42,448 nucleotides of DNA from positions 1 through 42,448 of the forward strand of contig JABMMM010000193.1 in assembly GCA_013205565.1 (NCBI GenBank). Reading direction: 5' to 3'. This stretch comes from Alcaligenaceae bacterium. Lineage in GTDB: Bacteria > Pseudomonadota > Gammaproteobacteria > Burkholderiales > Burkholderiaceae_B. The notes under the pieces are model-generated. The model saw only the letters and a list, made by a program, of their open reading frames with translations. It had not been told where the DNA came from and did not search any database. Made by a program: the position numbers and the translations under genes. Positions 5,319-11,402 of the stretch are shown piece after piece (positions within the stretch are counted from its first letter, which is position 1; every line of letters begins with the position of its first letter).

Positions 5319-5987
5319 TTAGTCTTGCGGGTTGACGGCCGGCTTAAGTCGAGAGAGCGCCGCACTGGCTAAACTGCTGACAGTTTGTAAAAACGTCGTA
5401 CCCATCTCGGGGGTAAAACGCTCGGGGTCCTCTGAACCAAGCACCAACAGGCCAAAGGCCGGTTCGTGGGGTTGCGCGCGCAGCGACAGCATCGCCAGCG
5501 AAGCGGGTTTTTTGTGCAACCAGCGCGCTGGGGTGAAATCTGTATTGTTGCCGCAGTAGGGTGCGGCCAGCGTGTTGGCGAAGTCGTGGACTGCTGGCTC
5601 AACGGGGGCGCCTACCCCTTCGGCAGGCAGGTCAAGTCCCCAGACACGCAAGGCGACCTCTTGCAAATTGAACTGCTCGGCCAAACCAAGCGCGACTTCA
5701 CCCGGCAGGCGCAGGGTCGATTGTTCGGCTAGCATCCGCGCGCACCACAAGTTTAATTTTGTGGTGGTGGCCTCGTTTAACGTCCCATTACGCACGAGCT
5801 CGGCTAAGCGAAACTCAAAATCGCGTAAGCGCTCGCGCAAGGTCAAAATTTGCCGCTCGCCCAGTGAGATCGTACGGGCGTGGTGAGGGTGGGGCACTTC
5901 AAGCGTAGAAAACAGTTCAGCGTGCTGAACAAAAAAATCAGGATTTTCTTGTAGAAATTTTGCGACTTTTTGCGCGGTATCAGGCAT
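5319..5987 (-). CDS. DUF484 family protein (YigA-like)
   Basis: 222-residue cytoplasmic protein of the DUF484 family, which has a GAF-like fold and no established biochemical role. The N-terminal FLQENPDFFVQH is the family hallmark and is followed by a short coiled-coil (about residues 45-75, RQILTLRERLRDFEFRL). The GAF-like part follows. No signal peptide or membrane segment. Its ATG overlaps the dapF stop by one base (TAATG), so translation is coupled, and xerC follows. The conserved dapF-DUF484-xerC order hints at a link to cell wall or division, but that is inference. Confidence 0.9.
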   Translation of the reverse strand: MPDTAQKVAKFLQENPDFFVQHAELFSTLEVPHPHHARTISLGERQILTLRERLRDFEFRLAELVRNGTLNEATTTKLNLWCARMLAEQSTLRLPGEVALGLAEQFNLQEVALRVWGLDLPAEGVGAPVEPAVHDFANTLAAPYCGNNTDFTPARWLHKKPASLAMLSLRAQPHEPAFGLLVLGSEDPERFTPEMGTTFLQTVSSLASAALSRLKPAVNPQD

Positions 5988-6883
5988 TAAGCTGGGCTCG
6001 TTAAGGATGGAATCGAAGCGACTAGTTGATCGATATCAATGCTGCCAGAAAAAACGGTAGTGGCCGGTCCGGTCATATGCAACTGCGTGCCATCAAATGC
6101 GACGGTGAGCCAGCCACCGTGCATGCGCACGCGAACCGGCGACACCAGCTGCCCGCGCCGAATGCCGGTTGCAACGGCCGCGCAAGCGCCGGTTCCGCAA
6201 GCGAGCGTTTCACCTGCGCCGCGTTCATACACACGTAAATAGATCGTATGCGCATCAACGATTTGCATAAAACCGACATTGACGCGATGCGCAAACCTAG
6301 GGTGTGATTCGATCAGTGGACCGAGCAAGGCAACGGGAGCCGCTTCGACCTCAGCGACGACTTGGACAGCGTGTGGATTTGAAATGGCTAGGGCAGACAG
6401 CCAAACGGTTTGCGGCGGGGTGGTGGCAAGCTCAAGCCCGTAGAGGGTCTCTTCACCCTGCGTTTTTGTGGGCAGGCCTTCGATATCAAAGGGCAAATCA
6501 GCTGCAGAAAAACGCGTTTGTCCCATTTCGGAGGTGACATTGCCGTTGGGTAAGGCTTCTAGAGTGATTAAACCGGTTGCGATCTCGGCGCGAAGTGGAT
6601 TACGCGAGGAGAGTTTTTGTTCATGCACAAACCTGACAAAGCAGCGTGTTCCGTTGCCGCAATGTTCGACCTCGCCACCATCGGCATTGAAGATGCGGTA
6701 GCGAAAATCTGCCTCAGGGTGAAGTGGAGTGTCAACCAGCAGAATCTGATCGCAGCCCACGCCAAACTGGCGGTGTGCAAGCGCTTGGGCGCGCTCTGGG
6801 GTCATTTCAATAGCTTGCCTGACCCCGTCTAGCACCACGAAGTCATTGCCCGCCCCGTGCATTTTCGTGAAATTCCATCTCAT
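5987..6883 (-). CDS. dapF: Diaminopimelate epimerase
   Basis: Converts LL- to meso-diaminopimelate, the precursor of lysine and of the peptidoglycan cross-link. The two catalytic cysteines sit in EHCGNGTRC (Cys75) and LACGTGAC (Cys229), numbered from the start chosen here; the hallmark MHGAGNDF is at the N-terminus. An ATG six codons upstream (6901) is also in frame. I prefer 6883 because it gives MRWNFTKMHGAGNDF, which matches the usual DapF N-terminus, although its AGGG is about 11 nt away. About 298 residues, complete. First gene of a minus-strand unit with DUF484 and xerC. Confidence 0.96.
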   Translation of the reverse strand: MRWNFTKMHGAGNDFVVLDGVRQAIEMTPERAQALAHRQFGVGCDQILLVDTPLHPEADFRYRIFNADGGEVEHCGNGTRCFVRFVHEQKLSSRNPLRAEIATGLITLEALPNGNVTSEMGQTRFSAADLPFDIEGLPTKTQGEETLYGLELATTPPQTVWLSALAISNPHAVQVVAEVEAAPVALLGPLIESHPRFAHRVNVGFMQIVDAHTIYLRVYERGAGETLACGTGACAAVATGIRRGQLVSPVRVRMHGGWLTVAFDGTQLHMTGPATTVFSGSIDIDQLVASIPSLTSPA

Positions 6884-6931
6884 TGCTACATTATCCCTCA
6901 TTCACCCTATCAAAGAGCAGGGGATTCGCCA

Positions 6932-6960
6932 TAATTAGCCAAATTGGCATAAAATTGCAA
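6932..6960 (-). promoter_or_regulatory. Candidate dapF promoter
   Basis: Minus-strand TTGCAA (6955-6960) and TAATTA (6932-6937) with a 17-bp spacer, giving a start about 24-42 nt before the dapF start codon. A plus-strand TAAAAT (6950-6955) overlaps it and could be the -10 of metK, although no good -35 accompanies it. The two promoters would be back to back. Confidence 0.45.
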
Positions 6961-7018
6961 CAGTCGCTGAGTTAACCGACAACTTGCGGAGCGACTGAGT
7001 TGGGTCAAGACTGAAATG
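6961..7018 (+). promoter_or_regulatory. Candidate SAM-II-like pseudoknot riboswitch in the metK leader
   Basis: An 8-bp perfect stem (CAGTCGCT 6961-6968 / AGCGACTG 6990-6997) encloses the loop GAGTTAACCGACAACTTGCGG. CTTG in that loop (6983-6986) can pair with CAAG (7006-7009) to form an H-type pseudoknot with an 8-nt third loop. From memory, SAM-II aptamers have P1, then UGAUUUAACC, then CUUGC, then P1', then CAAG and GCUAAA. Here the order is TGAGTTAACC, CTTGC, P1', CAAG, CTGAAA. Only 4 bp of P2 form and the last motif is imperfect, so it may be a divergent SAM-II, a related class, or chance. An alternative pairing CAACT/AGTTG (6980-6984/6998-7002) competes with P2. Confidence 0.45.
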
Positions 7019-7081
7019 TCTGACCGACAAAAAAATAATTCTGCTAAAGCGTCGCGCCCAGTCCAACGTCTTAACAGGTGA
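7016..7081 (+). CDS. Possible 21-residue leader ORF upstream of metK
   Basis: An ATG at 7016 opens a 21-codon frame rich in Lys, Arg, Asn and Ser and ending at TGA (7079-7081). It begins at the 3' edge of the pseudoknot element and stops inside the first strand of the metK-proximal junction. No convincing Shine-Dalgarno sequence precedes it, and it contains no Met codon after the start, so a methionine attenuator is not supported. It is listed only because its position would let translation alter folding of the downstream structure. It may well be chance. Confidence 0.2.
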   Translation: MSDRQKNNSAKASRPVQRLNR

Positions 7082-7140
7082 AGGTTCAGGGGTGCAACGC
7101 ACCTCCTTAACCCACCTCTGGCTTCGCCAGTAAAGGACGT
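7061..7140 (+). promoter_or_regulatory. Predicted three-way junction that overlaps the metK ribosome-binding site
   Basis: P1 pairs ACGTC (7066-7070) with GACGT (7136-7140). P2 is a long hairpin: AGGTG/CACCT (7076-7080/7113-7117), GGTT/AACC (7083-7086/7109-7112) and GGGGTGC/GCACCTC (7089-7095/7099-7105) with an AAC loop. P3 is CTGGC-TTC-GCCAG (7118-7130), directly abutting P2. The metK Shine-Dalgarno AAAGGA (7132-7137) runs into the 3' strand of P1, so P1 formation would hide it. GTCC (7061-7064) pairing with GGAC is an alternative. This looks like a translational switch or attenuating leader; the ligand is unknown. Confidence 0.5.
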
Positions 7141-7144
7141 GAGC

Positions 7145-8320
7145 ATGTCTACTAAATCAAACGACTTTCTCTTTACTTCTGAATCCGTGTCTGAAGGCCA
7201 TCCTGATAAGGTTGCCGATCAGGTATCTGATTCAATTCTTGACGCCATTTTTACGCAAGATCCCAACGCACGTGTCGCGGCCGAAACGCTGTGCAACACG
7301 GGCTTGGTGGTGCTAGCTGGTGAAATCACCACCACCGCTAACGTGGATTACATCCAGGTTGCACGCGACACCATCAAGCGCATTGGCTACGACAATACCG
7401 ATTACGGTATCGATTACAAAGGTTGCGCGGTGTTGGTGGCCTATGACAAGCAATCTCCTGATATTGCCCAGGGCGTTGATCGCGCCTCTGATGATTATTT
7501 GAATCAAGGTGCAGGCGATCAAGGTTTGATGTTTGGTTATGCTTGCTCTGAAACCCCTGACTTGATGCCAGCGCCGATTTGGTACGCACACCGCCTAGTG
7601 CAACGCCAGAGTGAGTTACGTAAAGATGGCCGCCTGCCCTGGTTGCGCCCCGATGCCAAGTCGCAAGTGACGTTTCGTTATGTCAATGGCGAGCCTGTAG
7701 AAGTGCACACCGTTGTCTTATCGACGCAGCATGCGCCTGAAATCAGTCTGACCGAAATCGAAGCGTCAGTCATCGAGCACATCATTCGCCCAAGTTTTCC
7801 CGCTGAGTTGTTGACGCCTAAGACCAAGTTCTTGGTGAACCCCACTGGTCGCTTTGTGATCGGCGGCCCCCAGGGCGATTGCGGCTTAACGGGTCGCAAA
7901 ATTATTGTTGATACCTATGGTGGTGCTTGCCCCCACGGCGGCGGCGCGTTCTCAGGCAAAGACCCCTCAAAGGTCGACCGCTCGGCGGCCTACGCTGCGC
8001 GTTATGTCGCCAAAAATATTGTGGCTGCTGGTTTGGCCACGCAGTGCCAGGTGCAAGTCAGTTACGCGATCGGCGTGGCAGAACCCATCAACATCACTGT
8101 CTACACCGAAGGCACTGGCGTAATCTCGGATGACGCGTTGGCCTTGTTGGTGCGTGAGCACTTCGACTTGCGTCCAAAGGGCATCGTGAACATGCTCGAT
8201 TTGTTGCGCCCGATCTACACCAAGACAGCGGCGTACGGTCACTTTGGTCGCAACGAGCCCGAGTTCACCTGGGAAGCCACCGACAAAGCTGCAATGCTTA
8301 AAAAGGCGGCTGGCAAGTAA
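7145..8320 (+). CDS. metK: S-adenosylmethionine synthetase
   Basis: Makes S-adenosylmethionine from methionine and ATP, the cell's main methyl donor. 391 residues with the GHPDK motif near the N-terminus, the adenine/phosphate signature [12 protein letters not shown] and the P-loop-like [17 protein letters not shown] start at the ATG at 7145, which has AAAGGA seven bases upstream; the in-frame GTG at 7139 would leave only about one base of spacing. The unusually long structured leader suggests control at the RNA level. A strong terminator follows, so metK is probably monocistronic. Confidence 0.98.
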
Positions 8321-11205: not shown

Positions 11206-11213
11206 TAGTCGGC

Positions 11214-11316
11214 TTTTGAGGAGCGTTGCGACGGATCCGCTGCACTTTGCCGGTCCGCCAGGCTCATAAGCTTCCACGTTACCGTTGGTGCTTTTGCCAA
11301 CCTTAACGGCGCTCAC
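11214..11316 (+). ncRNA. S-adenosylhomocysteine (SAH) riboswitch
   Basis: The segment carries the conserved SAH riboswitch blocks in order: GAGGAGCGTTGCGAC, a variable hairpin (CGGATCCG pairing with CGGTCCG, bulged T), CCAGGCTC, a second variable part, and AACGGCGCTCACC. GAGCG pairs with CGCTC to close the aptamer. The class senses SAH and turns on SAH-recycling genes, typically ahcY in beta- and gammaproteobacteria, which is exactly the gene downstream. Confidence 0.92.
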
Positions 11317-11402
11317 CTAATCCTGCCAGACAGCGATTGAGGTGGTGCACAATTTCACCCCACATTGCATTGTTGAGCAGGCTCACCGGAGCCCTTCTTG
11401 CT

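Follow-up and report, generated by a model that had tools for sequence, protein, structure and literature searches.

The window analysed here, a 42,448-nucleotide stretch of a 3.4 Mb Alcaligenaceae genome, carries metK on its forward strand at 7145-8320, encoding methionine adenosyltransferase (TIGR01034, E 3.4e-179) with an ATG start and a possible GTG start at 7139. Divergent from metK is an open reading frame on the reverse strand (5987-6901) that we take to be dapF, the label also given to it in a first-pass annotation of this DNA, and the RNA element described here sits between the two. Further along the forward strand, an SAH riboswitch (RF01057, 52.9 bits) at 11212-11321 precedes ahcY and then metF, a clustering of SAM-cycle functions in the window.

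Comparison with related leaders indicates that 6961-7144 is very probably the metK 5′ leader, containing a riboswitch of the SAM-II fold. Its first helix, P1, is a perfect 8-bp stem between CAGUCGCU (6961-6968) and AGCGACUG (6990-6997). Directly 5′ of P1 on the forward strand is a -10-like hexamer, TAAAAT (6950-6955), which scores 9/12 together with TCGCCA at 6926-6931 across an 18-nt spacer, and by-eye inspection found similar boxes at the equivalent place in many relatives. Because this hexamer adjoins P1, the 5′ end of the leader RNA is probably at P1 or close by. A second promoter-like match on the same strand (CTGAAA, 17 nt, AATAAT; 7011-7039) lies inside loop L3 and is probably due to chance.

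Helices of the metK leader

The loop of P1 opens with L1, GAGUUAACC (6969-6977), in which we take G6971 to lie at the position of SAM-II U10, and U6972 and U6973 at those of U11 and U12. L1 is expected to form the third strand of a major-groove triplex, going by the contacts described for SAM-II (PMC3764141). It is followed by GAC (6978-6980), the 5′ strand of an outer P2 segment, and by UUGCGG (6984-6989), which combines two pocket residues, U6984 and U6985 (SAM-II U20 and U21), with the 5′ strand of an inner P2 segment, GCGG. Beyond P1, L3 comprises a hairpin, P3 (6999-7028), defined by the minimum-energy fold and the alignment, and an A-rich end defined by the alignment (7029-7040). The inner P2 segment is completed by CUGC (7041-7044) and the outer one by GUC (7051-7053), and between them runs a canonical SAM-II GCUAAA box (7043-7048), in which U7045 corresponds to U44 and A7046-A7048 to A45-A47.

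The first-pass annotation had picked out the same 8-bp stem in the DNA, letter for letter (CAGTCGCT at 6961-6968, AGCGACTG at 6990-6997), and had correctly read its 21-nt loop, GAGTTAACCGACAACTTGCGG, and the downstream motifs CAAG (7006-7009) and CTGAAA (7011-7016). Such a stem means little by itself: the window contains 46 perfect 8-bp matches with 4-25 nt loops (longer stems counted more than once), and 20 local shuffles of the window yielded a mean of 14 (sd 5). Conservation and covariation in relatives are what lift P1 above chance.

In 35 aligned metK leaders, the inner P2 segment (columns 30-33/100-103 of alignment A1) and the outer one (22-24/110-112) pair in 100% of cells, with exchange among GC, AU and GU pairs. 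The inner segment occurs as GCGG/CCGC, GCAG/CUGC and GCGA/UCGC, and the outer as GAC/GUC alternating with GAAC/GUUC. Across 106 distinct rows, drawn from 108 matches, 89.0% of cells pair, and P1 and the two P2 segments hold 226 double-changed cells; shuffles average 94.9 (sd 7.5) and slid versions never exceed 59. These counts are not to be read as probabilities, the rows being related. P1 and both P2 segments thus covary in relatives, a check that the first-pass annotation had itself proposed, and the H-type pseudoknot it described holds up; its anatomy, with CTTG/CAAG as P2, does not.

We also collected leaders with a pattern that required a MetK start as well as the core motif; of 113 obtained, 55 were removed for being more than 90% alike, leaving 58 (the start assumed for one, L159, lies 249 nt away and is possibly wrong). 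Only 8 of these 58 non-redundant leaders have CAAG in L3, and one, that of the window's own genome, has CAAGnCTGAAA; in the minimum-energy fold, CAAG falls within the 6999-7028 hairpin. The conserved pseudoknot partner is instead CUGCUAAAGCGUC at 7041-7053, so that the aptamer extends to 7053 rather than ending at 7018, and the terminal motif, which the first-pass annotation had read as non-canonical, is the GCUAAA box. The layout common to metK upstream regions consists of the P1 5′ strand, GAGUUAA, 0-4 nt, (G)ACAACUUGC(G/A)GG, the P1 3′ strand, a variable L3, and the 3′ partner motif C(C/U)GCUAAAGCGUC, which corresponds to window 7041-7053. Compact leaders have a short A-rich L3 and lack P3, and long leaders carry a hairpin there: 33 long L3 segments fold with a mean z of -2.6 against base shuffles, with 29 of the 33 below -1.

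These comparisons also bear on the possibility that the inverted repeat is a DNA operator bound by a repressor. The palindrome adjoins the -10-like box, as an operator might, and is one of 46 such stems in the window. In relatives, however, the letters of the repeat vary while its pairing stays, the 3′ part of the element covaries with the loop, and the spacing from UUGC to GCUAAAGCG ranges from 18 to 69 nt in the 58 leaders. We therefore regard a repressor site as highly improbable, and treat the element as a structured RNA.

Pocket residues and relation to known SAM riboswitches

We examined the SAM-II pocket positions in 70 metK elements (69 distinct rows); on rechecking, each is followed by a MetK start no more than 500 nt away. 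U20, U21, G22, C23, G42, C43, U44, A45, A46 and A47 are kept in 70 of 70, and U11 and U12 in 69 with one gap, a conservation that is partly selected, since the model that retrieved the rows was itself built on sequences of this kind. At the U10 position, 63 of the 70 have G, six have U and one has a gap; in this alignment G for U10 is the one clear departure from the SAM-II pocket. U occupies this position in 22 of 31 other rows and in seven rows from f55, a family of the same class. R1-type elements (R1 being the covariance model described below) occur at ten f55 loci, two of which also have the Pseudomonas sRNA P11; the seven aligned f55 elements keep U10 and have AGC/GCU as outer P2. An ORF of 102-106 amino acids lies downstream in the six f55 loci read, and the four scanned showed at most weak methyltransferase similarity, with none in L196.

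Contact roles of the pocket residues come from PMC3764141, where U10 is described as completely conserved in SAM-II; U10 is also a listed ligand-binding residue (PMC11508383). The predominance of G at such a position raises the possibility of a SAM-II-fold riboswitch that binds, or discriminates in favour of, something other than SAM, such as SAH or another adenosine compound, and there is precedent in the spermidine-sensing variants of SAM-I, which include one at a metK gene (PMC10853860). Against this, the metK elements retain U44, A45-A47 and both U11 and U21, which in SAM-II turn their O4 atoms towards the sulfonium (PMC3764141), six of the 70 still have U at U10, and the gene controlled is metK itself. 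On balance we consider a different ligand unlikely, and SAM the probable one.

At E≤10, no Rfam family matched the window element except for two chance snoRNA matches. The SAM families covered include SAM-V (which we take to be RF01826), SAM-II long loops (RF01726) and SAM/SAH (RF01727), and scores with SAM models, which the first-pass annotation had suggested as a check, were not above random. In two relatives the SAM-II model RF00521 gave scores on the element below its cut-off of 36 bits (L082, 20.3 bits, E 0.0082 in 151 nt; L077, 13.7 bits, E 0.43), and its miss on the window element is probably due to a poor fit to the long L3. The earlier proposal of a divergent SAM-II or sister class giving feedback on MetK, despite its mistaken anatomy, fits well with the downstream metK, the covarying pseudoknot, the kept pocket residues and the sub-threshold RF00521 match in L082.

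The element shares with SAM-II (SAM_alpha, RF00521) the H-type pseudoknot, the GCUAAA box, the triplex pocket residues and the gene theme, and differs in escaping Rfam detection, in G for U10, in the P3 inserted in L3 and in its metK target. Both the U10 rule and the Rfam cut-off place it outside strict SAM-II membership. SAM-V has a similar SAM-II-type core, in which P1 is followed by a P3 hairpin, and acts at the level of translation (PMC6061858), but is described from marine alphaproteobacteria and Bacteroidetes, and carries its Shine-Dalgarno sequence within the P2a helix, adjoining the aptamer, whereas here the Shine-Dalgarno sequence (7133-7137) lies well beyond the aptamer end at 7053. 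RF01726 resembles the element in its extended loops, by name, and is reported from Bacteroidetes and marine samples; RF01727, an H-type pseudoknot also found before metK (PMC2864571, PMC7367207), is reported from Rhodobacterales (PMC2864571).

Ordinary SAM-II is present in the same bacteria. Of 250 genomes of the order, 47 have an RF00521 match that clears the cut-off. The single RF00521 match in the window's own genome (G000:C131:13717-13796, 42.0 bits) lies directly before metX-metW, so an ordinary SAM-II and the metK variant coexist there. Its GCUAAAGAAGG runs into the metX start, and control of metX is therefore probably translational. Two matches fall just below the cut-off: L200 (31.5 bits), before metZ, and L201 (32.2 bits), before an O-acetylhomoserine sulfhydrylase gene. 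SAM-II is also described at metA and metZ of an alphaproteobacterium (PMC9373788), and the alignment of Corbino 2005 includes Bordetella bronchiseptica, with the gene unnamed there. The metXZ element of betaproteobacteria (Leyn 2014; PMC4239095) is likewise a pseudoknot RNA before methionine genes of these bacteria, but at other genes and with a transcription terminator, and its authors report none for metK. Given the RF00521 scores before metX in the window's genome (42.0 bits) and metZ in L200 (31.5 bits), the metXZ element is probably SAM-II itself.

Ten of 20 loci, many of them picked for double or second matches, have tandem elements (L238-L241, L243-L247, L249), with a SAM-II-type copy first, an R1-type copy second and then a transporter-like ORF (MATE in L240, the one tested). 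RF00521 matched the first copy in eight of the ten genomes, in two above cut-off. A small ORF of about 100 amino acids lies between in the loci read (L239, L240, L156, L170), with no family match in L156, L170 or L240. These loci are consistent with the 44 SAM-II doublets of PMC9481103, some of which are described as combining a terminator in the first position with a ribosome-site platform in the second. In L248, two SAM-II-like motifs precede an ORF and a second MetK, which is divergent and no shorter than 292 amino acids (TIGR01034, 379.5 bits).

Distribution of the metK element

In a DNA search, the leader matched in 26 of 41 genomes including its own; 25 belong to the genus and one to another family, in which the match covers only a 34-nt core (window 6964-6997) upstream of metK. 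We then used R1, a covariance model built from 35 relatives with the window's own genome included, which scores 87.6 bits on the window element; the next match in that genome scores 16.5. Among 250 genomes of the order, R1 matched in 173 at a limit of E≤0.1, which is permissive enough to take in ordinary SAM-II as well, and in 101 at E below 1e-6. At the same limit in whole genomes, RF00521 matched in 2 of 14 control genomes, neither above cut-off. Of the 30 best loci in the order-wide R1 search, 23 have metK within 450 nt and 7 do not. Across the phylum, R1 matched in 48 of 299 genomes at E≤0.1, and metK is within 450 nt at 14 of 26 loci (L177-L202).

Starting instead from 80 named metK loci, we found an R1 element at 22. 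All are among the 33 nearest, mostly betaproteobacterial loci (L060-L091, L130), and the other 47 have none. The 11 near loci that lack the element include Gallionella, Neisseriaceae, Methylophilaceae and Nitrosomonas, and genera with element-linked records include Achromobacter, Cupriavidus, Paraburkholderia, Comamonas, Polynucleobacter and Accumulibacter.

A predicted translational switch on metK

Downstream of the aptamer, the strand ACGUCUU (7066-7072) can pair with AGGACGU (7134-7140), which overlaps the metK Shine-Dalgarno sequence AAGGA (7133-7137). The same pairing appears when 6955-7160 is folded to minimum energy, at z -2.4 and with 4 of 200 shuffles doing as well. In the 58 leaders, the corresponding duplexes average -17.3 kcal/mol versus -13.2 (sd 3.9) for cross-genome partners, and a fraction of 0.195 of mismatched partners do as well, where about 0.5 is expected by chance. 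By these comparisons, a covarying stem hides the Shine-Dalgarno sequence.

A second, alternative helix would join GCGUCGCGCCC (7049-7059), which overlaps P2, to GGGUGCAACGC (7090-7100) through 10 pairs and one mismatch. Across the 58 leaders this helix averages -15.4 versus -13.1 (sd 3.1) for mismatched partners, of which a fraction of 0.28 to 0.30 do as well; it reaches p≤0.05 against shuffles in 23 leaders and has p>0.05 in 35, lending it moderate support. Because it consumes the GUC of P2, the helix would exclude the folded aptamer, and in some relatives (L070, L074) part of the anti-Shine-Dalgarno strand is drawn into it as well. Pairing of the 5′ part of L3 with the anti-Shine-Dalgarno region looked attractive by eye in a few relatives, but was rejected, as real pairs (-20.3) were no better than mismatched ones (-20.7; n 58). 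No intrinsic terminator after the element was found in 6880-7160.

In the mechanism we propose, the aptamer comprises P1, a split P2 (GCGG/CUGC and GAC/GUC), a U/A triplex core and the P3 hairpin in L3. SAM binding would favour P2, leaving GGGUGCAACGC to fold locally and ACGUCUU free to pair with the Shine-Dalgarno region, switching metK translation off. When SAM is scarce, GCGUCGCGCCC would pair with GGGUGCAACGC and break the outer P2 segment, enclosing the anti-Shine-Dalgarno strand in a loop and leaving the ribosome site open. We consider it likely that the element is such a SAM-II-type translational OFF switch, through which SAM would feed back on its own synthase. Comparison among relatives supports this reading through the helices, pocket conservation, gene linkage and Shine-Dalgarno pairing, and more weakly through the alternative helix; SAM-II-like working is well supported by sequence, and we infer SAM as ligand, the OFF direction and the order of events. 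A leader that hides its Shine-Dalgarno sequence as an RNA thermometer, a protein site or an autoregulatory MetK site would account for the sequestering stem, which is conserved by itself, but would leave the kept SAM-II pocket bases and the covarying pseudoknot with no reason, and we judge it improbable beside the SAM-responsive switch.

We found no report of the metK element in the open-licence literature on metK, riboswitches and this bacterial group, so far as its available text goes (nearest: PMC4239095, PMC2864571); an earlier description elsewhere is possible. According to Leyn 2014 (PMC4239095), SAM_alpha was found only in Rhizobiales and Rhodobacterales, a search for elements at metY, metK and metNIQ in betaproteobacteria failed, and metK there, having no known regulator, may be constitutive or non-conserved in its regulation. 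The metK element would be a specific answer, in many genera, to this missing betaproteobacterial regulator, and it suggests that the Rfam SAM-II model misses one branch of the family. With it, one genome holds both an ordinary SAM-II and a naturally occurring variant that has G for U10 in the pocket. We tentatively suggest that the metK-linked elements of Burkholderiales and their relatives constitute a class of their own inside the SAM-II family, in which G for U10 may reshape the pocket, altering affinity or selectivity for SAM versus SAH or other adenosine compounds so as to tune it to the level of MetK's product, while an ordinary SAM-II serves metX in the same cell.
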